Assembly (NCBI GenBank): GCA_033816765.1
Contig: CM066290.1
Coordinates: forward strand, 4,340,001 to 4,404,000
Length of the DNA stretch: 64,000 nt
From: Nothopassalora personata
Taxonomy: Eukaryota; Ascomycota; Dothideomycetes; Mycosphaerellales; Mycosphaerellaceae
Direction: 5' to 3'
This document shows positions 17,008 to 23,717 of this stretch, one piece after another. Both the position numbers and the translations under genes were made by a program. Under the pieces are notes generated by a model. It was not told where the DNA came from. It saw only the letters and a program-made list of their open reading frames with translations, and ran no database searches. Within the stretch, counting starts at the first letter, position 1, and the number at the start of each line of letters is the position of its first letter.

Positions 17008-17165
17008 TGTAAGGGGCGAGCCCTTGCATCTTGGCACGGGCTGAGCCCGTGCGGACCTGACTCCGTTTTCTTTGTTCCGGGCTTCGCTCGGTTTTCTCCT
17101 TCTTCTGTATCGAACTTATTGCATACCACACAGAACCTCAGTGTACACGTCGTTCACCCGTGACA
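17008..17165 (+). repeat. Element 1 5' LTR
   Basis: 158 bp, TGTAAGGGG...CCCGTGACA. U3 carries a perfect 8-bp inverted repeat GCACGGGC-TGA-GCCCGTGC (17034-17052). If the element is self-primed like Tf1, R would begin at 17109 (ATCGAACTTA), leaving 57 nt of R+U5. Confidence 0.95.
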
Positions 17166-17166
17166 T

Positions 17167-17176
17167 TAAGTTCGAT
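17167..17176 (+). promoter_or_regulatory. Element 1 primer-binding site, self-complementary
   Basis: TAAGTTCGAT starts 2 nt after the LTR and is the exact reverse complement of ATCGAACTTA at 17109-17118 inside the LTR. In Tf1/sushi elements the 5' end of the RNA folds back on such a site to prime minus-strand DNA. Confidence 0.75.
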
Positions 17177-17223
17177 CCATTCGAATCAACCAGGCACCCG
17201 CCATTAAAGAGACGGAATACGTG

Positions 17224-20200
17224 ATGGCGTCGTCGGGTAGCGAGAACCCCGGGGTTGGTGCCTCGAATGAAAATTTTCAGCTTATGCTCGAGCAATTGTA
17301 CCAGCGACAGGAAGAGATGCAGGCCGAACTGATTGCAACGCGCGCCGCCTTGAAAGAGTCGGAAGACGCTCGACGTCAGTCAACCCCTGCAGTCTCACTA
17401 CCAGTTCCGGACGACGCGTCTACTGGTGACCTAATGAGACAGTTGCTGCAGACGCTGAATGCCGCCGCGAACGCGCCGCGCAGCGGCGGAGAACCGTCGG
17501 GGCCCAGAGGCTGGAACCCGCCCTCATGGGATGGCAAAGCCGAAACATTCAGGGACTACTTCCTAAGGTTGAAAAGTTCCTTCAGGGTGCGTTCCGCACT
17601 GAAACCGACGCTCTCCAATGAATTCTACTGGGACGCGATCAACGACACGTTGCTAGCGAGGGAGCGCACGAGGATGCGGCACTTCTGGGACAAGGGAGAC
17701 GGTGAACTTGGGAAGGACCCCGTTGCTTTCTTTGCGCAACTCGAAAAGGTCTTTGGCGATAGCAACGAACGCGCCAAGGCTCTAGAACAACTCACCAAGA
17801 TTAGACACGTGAACGGACAACCGTGGCACGATCACCAGATGAAATTCGACGGACTCCTGTTGACCGCCGGCGGAGAAGACTGGAGCAATGACGCGAAGAT
17901 CGGCTACCTCCGCAACACCTTCTCGAATCCCGCCAGAATGTATACGGCAGCCATGCCGAAAAAGGAGGATTACTACGAGTTCGCAGAGGAGGTTAAGCGG
18001 ATCATGACCAACCTCGAGGACACAGACCAGTTTAGAATAGCCCACAAGAAGTGGAAGGACAACAACAAGGACTCCAGTGCGACCACCACGGTTACCACTC
18101 GTTCTTTTGCGGGACCTACCGTTACCCGGGTGGACCATGATGGTGACACCATCATGGCACCAACCCGAACGAACGGAGGCCGCTCTAGAAGTCGTGGAGA
18201 CCGGAAGGAGGACAAGGGGAAGCAGAGAGCGAAATGGGTCGACACCGCTGAGAGAGATCGAAGGCGCCAAGAACAGCTCTGTTTCCGTTGCGGAGCGAGC
18301 GGGCATCGAGTGAAGGAATGTCCGTACGCCGCAGCAGTCAACCCCACCAAGATCAACGCAGCCTCAGTTGCGCCGATCCTGGAAGACGACGGGTTTGGGA
18401 AAAGACTAGCTCCTGGGCGAAAGCCAGCACCAGGAGACAAAGAAGCACTGGTAAAGGGGTGGAACGCTGCCAAGAGTTCTATGAACGGGAACCTTGTATA
18501 TACCGACGTACTCCTGAACGAAAGTTACGGCACGTTTGCCCTTATCGATGAAGGATGCATGTGTTATGCTGTAATTAACGGAGACCTAGCGAAAGGACTC
18601 GGTCTCACGTATGTCAGCAACGAGAGCCGCAAGGCTACAGGGTTCACCAAAGCGATGCGAAACTCGATTGAAGGAGTAGTTGCTTTCCACATGGAAATCG
18701 CCGGCATCCACGAGGTCGTGTACGCATACGTCGTGCCCGACTTGGACTTCCCGATGATTCTGGGGAACCCTTGGAAAGCGCACAATCAAATCCGAACTGC
18801 GCCAGAAAAGCACCGGTACTACCACGGTTTGGCAAAGAAATGGGTGCCCGAAGGACGCAACCATAAAGAACGCGAGGCGGGCGAACGTTTTGCTACGATC
18901 GCCGCGGCAACCGTGGAGGACATCAAGAAAGCCCTGAGCAAGAAGGAACCGCCCACGAGGGAGGAGCTCAAAATGAAGCTGCCTCCGGAACTTTGGGACA
19001 TGATCCCACTCTTTTCCACGCGGGAAGCCGACAAGCTCGCGCCCCATCGTGGGGAACTTGACCACAGGATCGAGATCCGGACGAAACCAGACGGATCGCA
19101 GGAGCCACTGCCCTGGGGACCGTTGTATAGCATGTCGAAAGACGAGCTGCTGGTGCTACGCAAGTCGCTAACCGAGCTGCATCGCAAGGGATACATCCGT
19201 CCCTCCACCTCAGAAGCGGCGGCCCCCGTCCTGTTTGTGAAGAAGCCCGGAGGAGGACTACGCTTTTGCTGCGATTATAGGGCGCTGAACGCGATTACGA
19301 AGCAAGATCGCTACCCGCTGCCTTTGATCCCGGAGACCATCCGAAATCTAACGGGAGCCAGATGGATGACGAAGGTGGACGTAGTTGCCGCGTTCCACCA
19401 TCTCCGGATGGCAAGAGGCGAGGAGTACAAGACCGCGTTTAGAACGAGATTTGGCCTGTGGGAGTGGTTGGTGTGTCCGTTTGGTTTGTCCGGGGCGCCG
19501 GCAACTTTCCAACGGTATATTAACAGTTTGCTGCGGGAACACCTGGACGACTTCGCCTCTGCATACGCTGATGACGTAGTGATCTACTCGGATGGGTCGA
19601 AGGAGGACCACTTCAAGAAGGTTCGCATCGTTCTCCATAAGCTTTGGGACGGAGGCCTGTTCTTAGATCCAGGTAAATGCGAGTTCGCACAGAAGAAGAT
19701 CAAGTACCTAGGGTTCATCGTCCACGCCGACGGAAAGGGGGTGGGACCAGACCCGGAAAAGGTGGATGCCGTACGGGACTGGAAGACGCCCGTCACTCAG
19801 AAAGAAGTGCGTCGTTTCCTCGGGTTCGCGAATTACTACAGGATGTTCATCCCCAACTACTCGAAGTTGGCCGAACCCTTGACGTCGCTGACGGGAAAGA
19901 AAACGCCGTTCTCCTGGGGGAAACGTCAGGAGGACGCCTTTCAGGCCCTGAAGAAGAAGTACTGTGAAGCTCCTGTGCTGGCCCATTGGAACCCGGAGCT
20001 TCCCACCTTTTTGGAGACGGACTGCAGTGGATTTGCCCTGGGTGGCGCTCTCCTGCAAGAAAAGGACGGGGTAGTGAAGCCGGTAGGGTTCTACTCAAAG
20101 AAACTGAATAAGGCTGAGATTAACTACGACATCCATGACAAAGAGATGCTCGCAGTAGTCTCCTGCCTCAAAGAGTGGGCCCCCGAGCTGAAAACGTGTG

Positions 20201-22203
20201 GTCCCTTTACAATTTGGACGGACCACAAGAACCTTGAGTACTTTATGACAAAGAGGCAGTTGTCTGAGAGGCAGATCAGGTGGGTGGAGCACATCGCGTT
20301 GTTTCAGTTTACCCTGGTATACAGGCCGGGCGCCGAGGCAATTGTGCCGGATGCATTGTCACGGAGGGAGCAGGATACGCTCGGCCAGGACGACAAATTG
20401 TCGCGTTTTCGCAGGTTTTTGCGGCCGGATGCCATACGCAATTGGCCGGCTCCAGGGGGGGGAGGCGAGGTGGTAGCAGATGCACCTTCATCCGCTACGA
20501 TGGTTTCATCGGTCCAGATTATGGCCACCCAATTCGGAGTCGACTCCACCGAGAAAACGTCGGACTCACCGGGCGCATCATCGGGCCCCTTCACAGATCC
20601 AGAATTGAACGAGATCTGGAGGAAGACCGCCGATGAAGACAGCACGTTTCAGGCAGTACTCCACGCAGTAAGAACCGGGGCGCGTTCACTCCCGAGCGAA
20701 GTGAAGCTCAAGGTACAAGCCGGTGACTGCAGCATCGACGACAACGGACACCTGCGGCACCGCGGAAGAATCTGGGTGCCGGGAGCCCCAGCAACGACGG
20801 AAGCCGACTACAAAGAGGCGGGCGCGGAGATATTGCAGAACGATGTCCTGCGGACGAAGCTCATCCAGTCCGTTCATGATTCACCGGTCTACGGCCATCC
20901 AGGCAGGGACTCCACAGCGTCTATCTTGAGACGTAACTTTTACTGGCCTCTACAGTCAAGGCACGTGAGACAGTTCTTGAGGAACTGCGATCACTGTGGG
21001 AGAAATAAGGTATGGAGGGAGCAAAAGCATGGACTCCTTCAGCCTTTACCGGTACCCGATCGTTTCTTCCAGGAGATCTCTATGGATTTCATGACGGACA
21101 TGCCGGAGTCGCAGGGAAACACTTGCTTGTGGGTAATCAAGGACAGACTGAGCAAGACCGTCGTCTTGGAAGCGATGTCCACCATGAAAGCGGAGGACTG
21201 CGCCGAGAGATTCCTGGACTGCTGGGTGAGATACTACGGGATTCCTAAGGCCATCACGAGCGATAGAGGCACGAACTGGACAAGCACATTCTGGAAGACA
21301 TTCTGTCGTTTAACCGGCGTGAAGCAGAGACTTAGCTCCGCCTACCACCCACAAACGGACGGAGGGCCCGAGAGGTTGAACCAAGAAGTGCAGGCGTACC
21401 TTCGGAATTATGTCAACCACGAGCAGTCCGATTGGAAAAAGTGGCTCTCCACCGCTCAGCTGGCGCTGAACGGACGGTACCAAGCGGGCCTAGGCATGAG
21501 CCCCTTCTTTGCCGTCCACGGTTACGAAGCGCCATTCCCCGTCCAGTTGCAGCCGGACTCAACGACTTCGTCGCTGGATGCCGCCAAACGGGCAACGCTC
21601 TTTGTGGAAAGGATGCAGCAGATCACGGACCTGTGCCAAGCGAGCATGGCGGACTCCGCCCAGGAGCAAGAGGAGAGCGCCAACAAAGATCGGAAGCCAG
21701 CGCCGATTTATCGGGTCGGTGACAAGGTGTGGCTGGATCTAAGGAACTACACTACGACCCGGCCGAAGAAGAGTATCGACCATAAGCACGCAAAGTACAC
21801 GGTGGCGGAGGTCATCTCACCGCTGTCCATCCGATTGTCAGGGATCCCCGATGGAATCCACCCGGTCTTTCACCCAGACTTGTTGCGACCTGCAAGCCAA
21901 GACCCGTTGCCTGGACAGGAGATCGACGACAAACAGCCGGACCCCATCCTCATTGAATCTCATGAGGAATGGCATGTAGAGGAGATTCTCTGCGCCAGAA
22001 CCAAGGCGAAAGGGAGGGGCAAAGCACGCGAAGTCCTAGTGAAATGGACTGGATACCACAAGCCTACGTGGGAACCATTGGAGTATCTAGCGGACACAGC
22101 TGCAGCAGACGACTTTGAGAAAAAGCACGGCAACCCGATGACGCACGATGGACCAAGGCAAGCATGGGAAGTCAAGAAGAAGGGCAGGGCGACAGGTAAG
22201 TGA
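17224..22203 (+). CDS. Element 1 fused Gag-Pol polyprotein with chromodomain
   Basis: One uninterrupted frame of 1,659 aa from ATG 17224 (MASSGSENPG); the frame is open from a preceding GTG. Domains in order: gag with coiled-coil N-terminus (1-340); a CCHC zinc knuckle CFRCGASGHRVKEC (about 353-366); retropepsin (about 430-530) with ALIDEGCMCY in place of the usual D-[ST]-G, and PMILGNPW; reverse transcriptase (about 650-830) with PVLFVKKPGGGLRF and the YADDVVIYSD active site near 779; RNase H starting TDCSGFALGGAL near 930; integrase with a H-H-C-C zinc site (HDSPVYGHPG...CDHCGRNK) and D,D,E residues in ISMDFM, TSDRGTNW and GGPERLNQ; and a chromodomain near 1590-1640 (EEILCARTK, VLVKWTGYHKPTWEP). 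A single gag-pol frame is the Tf1 arrangement. The product makes virus-like particles, copies the RNA and integrates the cDNA, and the chromodomain probably steers integration. Confidence 0.95.
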   Translation: MASSGSENPGVGASNENFQLMLEQLYQRQEEMQAELIATRAALKESEDARRQSTPAVSLPVPDDASTGDLMRQLLQTLNAAANAPRSGGEPSGPRGWNPPSWDGKAETFRDYFLRLKSSFRVRSALKPTLSNEFYWDAINDTLLARERTRMRHFWDKGDGELGKDPVAFFAQLEKVFGDSNERAKALEQLTKIRHVNGQPWHDHQMKFDGLLLTAGGEDWSNDAKIGYLRNTFSNPARMYTAAMPKKEDYYEFAEEVKRIMTNLEDTDQFRIAHKKWKDNNKDSSATTTVTTRSFAGPTVTRVDHDGDTIMAPTRTNGGRSRSRGDRKEDKGKQRAKWVDTAERDRRRQEQLCFRCGASGHRVKECPYAAAVNPTKINAASVAPILEDDGFGKRLAPGRKPAPGDKEALVKGWNAAKSSMNGNLVYTDVLLNESYGTFALIDEGCMCYAVINGDLAKGLGLTYVSNESRKATGFTKAMRNSIEGVVAFHMEIAGIHEVVYAYVVPDLDFPMILGNPWKAHNQIRTAPEKHRYYHGLAKKWVPEGRNHKEREAGERFATIAAATVEDIKKALSKKEPPTREELKMKLPPELWDMIPLFSTREADKLAPHRGELDHRIEIRTKPDGSQEPLPWGPLYSMSKDELLVLRKSLTELHRKGYIRPSTSEAAAPVLFVKKPGGGLRFCCDYRALNAITKQDRYPLPLIPETIRNLTGARWMTKVDVVAAFHHLRMARGEEYKTAFRTRFGLWEWLVCPFGLSGAPATFQRYINSLLREHLDDFASAYADDVVIYSDGSKEDHFKKVRIVLHKLWDGGLFLDPGKCEFAQKKIKYLGFIVHADGKGVGPDPEKVDAVRDWKTPVTQKEVRRFLGFANYYRMFIPNYSKLAEPLTSLTGKKTPFSWGKRQEDAFQALKKKYCEAPVLAHWNPELPTFLETDCSGFALGGALLQEKDGVVKPVGFYSKKLNKAEINYDIHDKEMLAVVSCLKEWAPELKTCGPFTIWTDHKNLEYFMTKRQLSERQIRWVEHIALFQFTLVYRPGAEAIVPDALSRREQDTLGQDDKLSRFRRFLRPDAIRNWPAPGGGGEVVADAPSSATMVSSVQIMATQFGVDSTEKTSDSPGASSGPFTDPELNEIWRKTADEDSTFQAVLHAVRTGARSLPSEVKLKVQAGDCSIDDNGHLRHRGRIWVPGAPATTEADYKEAGAEILQNDVLRTKLIQSVHDSPVYGHPGRDSTASILRRNFYWPLQSRHVRQFLRNCDHCGRNKVWREQKHGLLQPLPVPDRFFQEISMDFMTDMPESQGNTCLWVIKDRLSKTVVLEAMSTMKAEDCAERFLDCWVRYYGIPKAITSDRGTNWTSTFWKTFCRLTGVKQRLSSAYHPQTDGGPERLNQEVQAYLRNYVNHEQSDWKKWLSTAQLALNGRYQAGLGMSPFFAVHGYEAPFPVQLQPDSTTSSLDAAKRATLFVERMQQITDLCQASMADSAQEQEESANKDRKPAPIYRVGDKVWLDLRNYTTTRPKKSIDHKHAKYTVAEVISPLSIRLSGIPDGIHPVFHPDLLRPASQDPLPGQEIDDKQPDPILIESHEEWHVEEILCARTKAKGRGKAREVLVKWTGYHKPTWEPLEYLADTAAADDFEKKHGNPMTHDGPRQAWEVKKKGRATGK

Positions 22204-22426: not shown

Positions 22427-23304
22427 TCAAGACATGTCGCGGCGGGTGCCAAGGCGGAGGGCAGGAGGGACGGGGCCGCTGGAAAATGATCGGTCAGCGA
22501 CGTCTTTCAATCGGAGTGCAACACTTACGAGCCAGCTTGCGCGTTGATGGCTCCCTCCATGGAGCCAGTGACCTCAGCAGCCACAGGACTGAGAGACGGT
22601 TAGCGATGGTTTTCAATCGGAGACCGGTGGAAATTACCCGGACAGCAGACCATCGGACTCGAGCTTGGAGAGCGGGCGCCAAGCCTTGATGACCTTCTTG
22701 AGATTGTCGAGTTTGGTGCTTTTCAGGCGTTAGCCGACGGAAAACGATCGCAGGCCGGAGACTTACGCCTTGGAAGCGTTGCCGGCACGGGTCCAGGCCG
22801 CGTACGCCTTGTGGCAGAGTGCTGAGTGTGGGGGGTTAGCGGAGTCCGGTCGAAAGGGGTCGGAGAGCGACTCACAGCGGGCGGCAGCGCTTCTGAAGGC
22901 GGCGGCACTCGTCGCAGCTGCGGACTTGATTGGCGGCCTGCGGATGTTTGTGAGCGGAGTCCGGCTGGAAAACGTCGGACTCAGGCGTCTTACGGCAGGG
23001 CCCACGCAATCGCGGCCAGAGTTGGCGCACTCCAGGCAGTGGTAGAGCATGTTTTCTGCTGGAAACCAGTTAAAAAGCATCGGAGGCCGGCTCAAAAGAA
23101 TCGGACTTACTTGATGGTATTGATTGAAGATGTGGTGTTTGGAGGCTGTTGTGTTGGTGGTGCTGGAATCCGGTTAGTTTCTGTCGGAGCGCGGCGAGAA
23201 GGAATCGGATCGAGGGCGAAGGGGATCGTAGAGAGGGGCGGAGGTGATAGGGCTAGTGGAGGAAGAGGAGGGAGGGTGCTGTCAAGGGGTGTGTTCACAT
23301 ACAT
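22427..23304 (-). CDS. antisense spliced gene inside element 1, Zn(2)-Cys(6)-like
   Basis: Between pol and the 3' LTR the minus strand has seven exon-like blocks joined by six consensus introns: 23110-23056, 22993-22938, 22875-22822, 22766-22719, 22637-22589 and 22528-22479 (48-56 bp, GTAAGT/GTGAGT/GTAATT to YAG or AAAAG, with CTAAC/CTGAC/CTCAC branch sites). From MLYHCLECANSGRDC (23050) into RSCDECRRLQKRCRP the cysteines are spaced C-x2-C-x6-C-x11-C-x2-C-x6-C, the spacing of a fungal Zn(2)-Cys(6) cluster. The last four exons read CHKAYAAWTRAGNAS, TKLDNLKKVIKAWRPLSKLE and LRLGTRRDMS to TGA at 22429-22427, all with phase-2 joins. Two problems remain: the 5' exon (from 23304 or further upstream) does not join in phase, and the exon 3/exon 4 junction is off by one base. 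The gene may therefore be slightly degraded or my splice choice there is wrong. Function unknown; DNA binding is inferred from spacing only. Confidence 0.6.
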
Positions 23305-23384
23305 TCGCTTAATGGTTGCCGAGCAAAAAAAAAAGAAAAAAAAGAGGAAGCTGTCCGGTAGATATATTCTGGAGTCCTATTGTT

Positions 23385-23412
23385 CACATGTGACAATAGC
23401 CATTGTCACATG
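23385..23412. promoter_or_regulatory. inverted repeat upstream of the antisense gene
   Basis: CATGTGACAAT (23387-23397) and its inverted copy ATTGTCACATG (within 23401-23412) form an 11-bp stem with a short loop. It lies about 80 bp upstream of the antisense gene's first possible ATG and 150 bp inside the 3' LTR, so it could be an operator-like site or a structural element of the retrotransposon RNA. Confidence 0.5.
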
Positions 23413-23540
23413 GGTAACAACACGAAACCTCACACTCACCTAGGCAACAATACCACAACACAGCGACGGCGGGACCCGACAATGAAGGCACGGCCTTCGA
23501 CGGCGACAACAAGCAGGCGGAGGAGACGCTGCAGGCGGCG

Positions 23541-23556
23541 GAGGGGAGAGGGGGGG
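23541..23556 (+). promoter_or_regulatory. Element 1 polypurine tract
   Basis: The purine run GAGGGGAGAGGGGGGG ends 3 nt before the 3' LTR, the standard position for plus-strand primer formation. Confidence 0.85.
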
Positions 23557-23559
23557 TAA

Positions 23560-23717
23560 TGTAAGGGGCGAGCCCTTGCATCTTGGCACGGGCTGAGCCC
23601 GTGCGGACCTGACTCCGTTTTCTTTGTTCCGGGCTTCGCTCGGTTTTCTCCTTCTTCTGTATCGAACTTATTGCATACCACACAGAACCTCAGTGTACAC
23701 GTCGTTCACCCGTGACA
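23560..23717 (+). repeat. Element 1 3' LTR
   Basis: 158 bp, identical by eye to 17008-17165, followed by the GCGAA target duplication. Confidence 0.95.

Follow-up and report, generated by a model that had tools for sequence, protein, structure and literature searches.

A candidate spliced antisense gene for a six-cysteine protein between pol and the 3' LTR of an intact chromovirus of Nothopassalora personata

The window analysed here is a stretch of 64,000 nucleotides from Nothopassalora personata (assembly GCA_033816765.1, contig CM066290.1, positions 4,340,001 to 4,404,000), and the 54.5-Mb assembly from which it comes (G000) was the genome searched for copies. It holds an intact chromovirus, element 1, with identical LTRs, the target-site duplication (TSD) GCGAA and a single gag-pol ORF. 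Its features, in window coordinates, are:

17008..17165, plus strand: 5' LTR, 158 bp, matching the 3' LTR exactly, with TSD GCGAA on both sides of the element
17221..22203, plus strand: gag-pol ORF, 1660 aa, with RT, RNase H, integrase and chromodomain (ORF list, Pfam scan)
23540..23557, plus strand: polypurine tract directly 5' of the 3' LTR (direct reading)
23560..23717, plus strand: 3' LTR, 158 bp, matching the 5' LTR exactly

Element 1 thus has the RT, RNase H, integrase, C-terminal chromodomain and LTRs by which a chromovirus is recognized, the chromodomain scoring 25.3 bits against a Pfam cut-off of 25.1; the CCHC knuckle in gag-pol, at 20.6 bits, falls slightly under its cut-off of 20.8. 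Directly 3' of the 5' LTR, TAAGTTCGAT (17166-17180) is by direct reading complementary to ATCGAACTTA within the LTR, which would fit self-priming, the mechanism of Tf1/sushi elements. About 1.3 kb separate the pol stop at 22203 from the polypurine tract, and the sole plus-strand ORF of at least 150 aa in this interval is one of 205 aa (22826-23443).

The minus strand of the same interval reads as a spliced gene at 22427-23302, between the end of pol (22203) and the start of the 3' LTR (23560), with six short GT-AG introns (A-F), one further intron in the 5'UTR (seven in total) and six coding exons. All of the following features lie on the minus strand and are given in the order of transcription:

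23360..23420, minus strand: candidate antisense promoter (direct reading); the upstream stretch is 74% identical to family B, the sister family described below
23163..23302, minus strand: 5'UTR intron, 140 nt (direct reading), for which family B has a comparable donor and branch/acceptor region
23111..23162, minus strand: 5'UTR exon, 50 nt of which are 86% identical to a host histone H4 gene 5'UTR
23059..23110, minus strand: intron A, acceptor at 23059 or 23056 (direct reading)
22994..23050, minus strand: coding exon 2, the first coding exon (ATG at 23050), with the first C-x2-C-x6-C (spliced translation)
22938..22993, minus strand: intron B (GT-AG signals, phase of join)
22876..22937, minus strand: coding exon 3, with the second C-x2-C-x6-C (spliced translation)
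22822..22875, minus strand: intron C, whose acceptor is unlike between window-type and in-phase copies (copy comparison)
22767..22821, minus strand: coding exon 4, with the boundary of the window type (spliced translation)
22719..22766, minus strand: intron D (splice signals)
22638..22718, minus strand: coding exon 5 (spliced translation)
22589..22637, minus strand: intron E (splice signals)
22529..22588, minus strand: coding exon 6 (spliced translation)
22479..22528, minus strand: intron F (splice signals)
22427..22478, minus strand: coding exon 7, terminating in TGA (spliced translation)

Donors, branch-like sites and acceptors are present in introns A-F. In an intron-motif scan the minus strand gave 5 sites where shuffles averaged 0.32, and 0 of 500 dinucleotide shuffles reached 5; the plus strand gave 1 site, and the adjoining pol, read on the minus strand, gave 0. 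An earlier note, made from the sequence of this DNA alone, had described six short introns opposite gag-pol, between pol and the polypurine tract of an element with identical LTRs, and both the scan and the LTR/TSD reading bear it out. Exons 2 and 3 likewise join in phase, as it had proposed, to give cysteines spaced C-x2-C-x6-C-x11-C-x2-C-x6-C, and exons 4-7 make up a single frame that runs on to a stop ending at 22427. The note had found the phase of the 5' exon difficult; if, as we read it, the ATG directly downstream of intron A is the start codon and the exons upstream are 5'UTR, that difficulty disappears.

The candidate promoter contains two near-palindromic units of ~18 nt around CATGTG (23420-23402 and 23397-23379) and a TATA-like ATATATCT at 23367-23360. 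The promoter-like stretch is kept in family B, one copy of which, L026, has one additional unit. As a separate observation, the 5'UTR exon (window 23111-23160) matches the host histone H4 gene 5'UTR at 86% over 50 nt (E 6e-9; locus L029, G000:C7:1538314-1538363). Allowing at most 2 mismatches, a 22-nt core of this exon occurs at 22 places, namely 17 in family A, two in family B (L057 and L060), the H4 gene and 2 further places; the reversed control occurs at 0.

Queried with the antisense region, the genome yielded 18 full-length copies, 17 of them at 98-100% and one (L018) at 87%, the last a RIP-mutated copy whose differences are, by eye, mainly C-to-T and G-to-A. Because a query derived from the region cannot detect copies that are without it, 1.4 kb of pol was used as an independent query. 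Among the best 40 of 171 candidates, the 17 copies of the first search came back at 99-100%, followed by a copy on C9 at 90% and by family B at 71-75%; the antisense region was present in 17/17 of the copies matching at 99-100%. The earlier note's central claim, a real antisense spliced gene, is upheld by this retention and by its recurrence in family B. Sorted by their TSDs, the 17 copies (family A) represent 12 independent insertions, and LTR pairs are identical in 16 of the 17 non-RIP copies. Since the genomic RNA reads the complement of the introns, they are not spliced from it and would survive retrotransposition; the family A copies fit this persistence, which the note had stated.

The six copies that share the TSD GATAT are arranged in an array on C1 (G000:C1:5715000-5775320) and were counted as one insertion. 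They lie three per orientation, mostly ~10.8 kb apart, and the whole is a recent segmental array. Numerous one-base indels, which may be assembly errors, occur in the member L012/L044, and L012 was kept out of the intact copies for that reason. In the RIP-mutated copy on C9 (L018; G000:C9:2607721-2609120) pol lies ~9 kb, not 1.3 kb, from the antisense region; other DNA seems to have been inserted between the two.

The one-base discrepancy at the exon 3/4 junction, which the earlier note had left unexplained, is real in the window copy. It is, on comparison of the copies, private to one sub-lineage, since 6 of the 12 insertions (L010, L011, L013-L016) and L018 have an intron C acceptor that joins the exons in phase. 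The acceptor breaks the frame in 5/12 insertions (the window, the array, L007, L008 and L009), at a point after the cysteine module, and in L017 it has been lost through a 10-nt deletion. The part that holds all six cysteines, exons 2-3, is open in 12/12 insertions, and a 123-codon frame is open to the same stop in five (L011, L013-L016); L010 has the in-phase acceptor but a nonsense codon. The product of the window copy would be 89 aa long and consist of the cysteine module with an unrelated tail. Twelve positions vary in the family A exons, counted by script after exclusion of L012, L018 and codon 41, which lies in the altered acceptor, and they comprise 2 synonymous changes, 9 amino-acid changes and 1 nonsense change. 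The frame-broken copies stand at five places with different TSDs and, one array member excepted, identical LTRs; because these 5/12 insertions still transposed, the complete protein is not required in cis.

A second polymorphism of family A lies at the gag-pol junction (window 18380-18430), where a 20-nt segment is found in 5 of the 12 independent insertions and is missing from 7 (loci given: window 18380-18430, L040, L041, L043, L047 and L048). In copies with the segment, gag stops right after GGGAAAA, and a hairpin (z -3.6 vs mononucleotide shuffles, one copy folded) and pol in the -1 frame follow. This arrangement is the layout of a -1 ribosomal frameshift site. In copies without the segment gag and pol are one ORF. 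Each of the four possible pairings of this marker with the intron C acceptor is found (in 3, 2, 3 and 3 insertions, L017 aside), a distribution that points to recombination or template switching among family A copies.

Fourteen of the 15 weaker places found with the region query have the promoter-like stretch, the fifteenth being the H4 5'UTR (L029), and pol fragments at 62-71% protein identity to element 1 are present in 11 of those 14. Family B, whose pol is ~68% identical to that of element 1, is heavily mutated in a RIP-like manner (TA/AT 1.45-2.39 in 31 copies). The sample of 31 joins the 11 copies with pol fragments to 20 more from the best 40 of 330 candidates; L030, L031 and L033, which do not align past the promoter, were left out. 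With copies retrieved through the antisense region itself and exon borders set with family A as guide, the family B gene has the same place, intron layout, frame and six cysteine positions as that of family A. Each exon length is constant in at least 30 of the 31 copies, acceptors are AG in 30-31, and the donors of the five coding introns are GT in 8, 22, 30, 31 and 31, the lost ones being AT in all but two cells. At the six cysteine positions TGC or TGT is present in 8, 3, 8, 2, 1 and 26 of the 31 copies; elsewhere the codon is TAC or TAT, the expected RIP product of a cysteine codon. Two copies that are identical over this reading, L057 and L060, have five of the six cysteines together, and the family B spacing is C-x2-C-x6-C-x10-C-x2-C-x6-C, against a linker of x11 in family A.

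Alignment of the family A and B proteins in the spliced frame gave z scores of 13.5, 12.8 and 15.6 for three family B copies, against at most 6.2 in other frames or strands and at most 4.5 for translated introns, and this frame-specific match is the main evidence for selection on a protein. Measured on one family B copy, nucleotide identity in the coding exons (47-58%) does not exceed that in the introns (47-62%); it is 62% in the 3' flank, 71% in the 5'UTR exon and, apart from RIP-type changes, 74% in the promoter-like stretch, where the region has its maximum. Once RIP-type and stop codons are excluded, dN amounts to 0.64-0.66 and dS to 0.88-1.03, so that dN/dS is ~0.6-0.7; pN/pS is 0.77-0.83 in frame vs 0.90-1.07 in the two shifted frames, for which RIP-type codons were retained. 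Taken from these comparisons, constraint on the protein is modest, with dS near saturation. Counts of non-RIP differences by codon position (51, 50, 62 in L026; 51, 53, 59 in L020) are nearly flat and were given no weight as proof. The earlier note had looked to other copies for conservation and purifying selection, and the answer is divided: within family A the few changes are mostly non-synonymous and the frame breaks in 5/12 insertions, whereas between the families frame, introns and cysteines have been kept.

Zn(2)-Cys(6) domains of Pfam family PF00172 span the spacing range C-x2-C-x6-C-x(5-12)-C-x2-C-x(6-8)-C, within which the six cysteines of both families fall (x11 linker in family A, x10 in family B). 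To this extent the earlier note's assignment to the Zn(2)-Cys(6) class holds; the protein is not a recognised Pfam domain of this class, with a score of 8.9 bits vs a gathering cut-off of 21 (E 2.2, residues 25-38 only), and 2 of the 4 members of alignment A1 match the profile, with a best E of 0.97. The aligned piece is the second half-motif alone, which pairs with the opening half of the profile, as though the two half-modules of Zn2Cys6 had changed places. The Zn2Cys6 fold is pseudo-symmetric, and we infer that such a fold would permit the swap. The Pfam scan found no bZIP domain in the antisense protein, no Pfam or PDB match was significant, and the PDB sequence search returned two chance matches only, at E 2 and 0.45. 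Among 5.8 billion proteins, searched with the single sequence and with alignment A1, there were no homologues at E<=10; the plasmid collection gave no match, and no relatives appeared in viral contigs or a first scan of genome contigs. In the protein search of the fungus's own genome (80 candidates, each of them scored) the matches were copies of family A, two of family B (C13:893839 and C29:21392, known as L057/L060) and C7:1270888 at E 0.15. Capture from the host, which the note had put forward, found no support in these searches, which produced no host source.

A more distant element offers a possible parallel. Environmental pols in the protein collection are 77-83% identical to element 1 over the RT region, and a chromovirus-like LTR retrotransposon (L070, NZ_JACJRE010000119.1), 60% identical in the RT region, lies on a contig filed under the cyanobacterium Tolypothrix sp. 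FACHB-123 that is probably a fungal contaminant in the cyanobacterial genome. Behind pol, its minus strand reads as 564 aa in five exons with all junctions in phase 0:

7124-6864, 6809-6729, 6674-6291, 6236-5877 and 5814-5206, minus strand: L070 antisense exons (spliced reading)

The four introns are GT-AG and 54-62 nt long; the intron-motif scan found 4 sites (3/500 shuffles reach 4) and 0 on the plus strand. Six cysteines are spaced C-x2-C-x11-C-x8-C-x2-C-x6-C. Comparison with the 123-aa protein gave no significant similarity (hhalign probability 0.4%; BLASTP E 0.57), and the intron positions differ from those of the family A gene; as judged from the spliced readings, L070 repeats the place, strand, splicing and six-cysteine cluster, and its gene is at most a possible homologue. 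Exon 3 modelled alone reached a pLDDT of 52.8, and the model was set aside.

Antisense genes near the 3' end of retroelements have precedents. HBZ of HTLV-1 is a spliced antisense gene of this kind that regulates the sense genes, encodes a bZIP protein and is started from the 3' LTR. Element 1 shares with it a spliced antisense gene near the 3' end but has an internal promoter-like stretch and a cysteine-rich protein without a bZIP match. In fungi, BRTN was reportedly described from Boty-like chromoviruses of Botrytis cinerea by Zhao et al. in 2011 (Virology 417:248). Boty is a fungal chromodomain LTR element with an extra antisense gene, brtn, between pol and the 3' LTR (PMC7264820, PMC8365987, PMC4227169, in the available parts of these articles; brtn is also cited in that of PMC5987419). 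The likeness to element 1, drawn by description only, is thus an antisense extra gene between pol and the 3' LTR of a fungal chromovirus; a difference is that the available parts of the first three articles mention neither introns nor a cysteine cluster for BRTN. The antisense ORFs of maize Grande (gene23), RIRE2 and Retand belong to the aORF-3R class, in which BRTN can also be placed and which lies antisense between pol and the 3' LTR, has its own promoter in Grande and is kept in most copies (PMC7264820, available part). The gene of element 1 has the same position (22427-23302, minus strand) and is present in 17/17 copies (best 40 of 171 candidates), with the 123-aa frame open in 5/12 insertions. 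Those elements differ in being from plants; introns are mentioned nowhere in PMC7264820, and its available part names no cysteine cluster for them but does mention the HTLV antisense promoter. Additional ORFs of elements, but not antisense ones, are mentioned in the available part of PMC2864245. None of the literature matches listed (titles and abstract starts, with subscription journals largely outside) pointed to an antisense gene with several introns or a cysteine cluster in an LTR element of a fungus, which is weak evidence of novelty.

The antisense gene appears to be a true accessory gene, not a product of chance, and its function is putative. We give a probability of about 0.55 to the reading that element 1 carries a spliced antisense accessory gene for a 123-aa cysteine-rich regulator or accessory factor. 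In outline, an internal antisense promoter, consisting of the palindromic units and the TATA-like box just inside the polypurine tract, would drive a spliced mRNA encoding the 123-aa protein; the six cysteines would probably hold zinc in two pseudo-symmetric half-modules and so contact nucleic acid, and the protein would most likely have a nuclear role, regulating the element or assisting it, along the lines suggested for BRTN, gene23 and the antisense genes of retroviruses. From the window copy and its sub-lineage the 89-aa variant would be expected, in which the cysteine module is kept and the tail is different. Because of the cysteine module and the promoter palindromes, the product is most likely a zinc- and nucleic-acid-binding antisense accessory protein, functionally like BRTN or gene23, and perhaps it binds its own promoter.

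Other explanations deserve weighing against this accessory gene. That the introns and open frames are chance motifs in a GC-rich stretch, or a sense ORF misread on the wrong strand, is highly improbable: a 205-aa plus-strand ORF (22826-23443) does overlap the region, but no shuffle of 500 matched the motif count, the antisense frame is kept in family B and the best sense frame has a z of only 6.2. If the ancestor of families A and B had long ago picked up a passenger gene that is of no use to the element and is now in decay, this would account for the 10 of 12 variable exon positions in family A that alter or stop the protein, for the acceptor deletion in L017 and the frame-breaking acceptor of five insertions, and for an A-B dN/dS that indicates weak constraint. 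We think it distinctly unlikely nonetheless, as the region persists in every well-preserved family A copy (17/17 among the best 40 of 171 candidates) at a cost of ~1.3 kb of added length, and the six cysteines and junction phases were kept in family B while exon identity fell to ~53%.

The two remaining alternatives also give the region a use. The antisense RNA itself, whether spliced or not, might be the functional product, pairing with the 3' portion of the genomic RNA into a duplex that limits copy number through RNA silencing, with the frame a relic. Conservation between the families is indeed higher in the promoter-like stretch (74%) and 5'UTR exon (71%) than in coding exons (47-58%), the acceptor breaks the frame in 5/12 insertions, and dsRNA has been raised as an alternative for such elements (PMC7264820, available part); we nevertheless hold it rather unlikely, for a role of RNA only would require neither reading frame nor introns, and protein conservation between A and B is frame-specific, with the six cysteine positions kept. 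It is possible, if still doubtful, that the protein is a trans-acting helper of replication or integration (a nucleic-acid chaperone, or a factor in nuclear import or targeting) rather than a regulator of transcription, with intact copies mobilising truncated ones. Transposition of frame-broken copies would then be accounted for, copies do seem to recombine (two markers in all four combinations), and comparable roles have been proposed for antisense ORFs (PMC7264820, available part). The promoter palindromes, however, suit a self-binding regulator equally well.

Antisense extra genes are known in plants and Boty, and their function, and the origin of most, are unexplained (PMC7264820, available part). 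With its young near-identical copies, naturally occurring frame-broken forms and a sister family that has diverged, the present family allows protein and RNA explanations to be separated, and the intron-rich form may explain why such genes escape notice, since single-ORF annotation is blind to them. A broader conjecture, which we entertain only tentatively, is that fungal chromoviruses commonly bear an ancient antisense gene with several introns whose product, a nuclear protein with six cysteines and swapped zinc half-modules, binds palindromes in its own promoter and sets the balance of sense and antisense transcription; gene finders would overlook such a gene because it is spliced and has short exons. 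If true, it would be a fungal counterpart of the retroviral antisense regulators.

The introns themselves show some further features. A genome-wide origin as introners was rejected as unsupported, low-mismatch motif matches being confined to family A: intron motif 1 occurs at 49 places, of which the 35 with at most 2 mismatches are all family A copies and the 14 with 3 mismatches are 3 known copies and 11 further places, and intron motif 2 has 27/27 places in family A. The introns are also alike among themselves, most of all E/F (z 11.3) and B/C (z 6.5), with the other 13 pairs at 1.0-4.8, as if introns A-F had arisen by duplication within the antisense gene.
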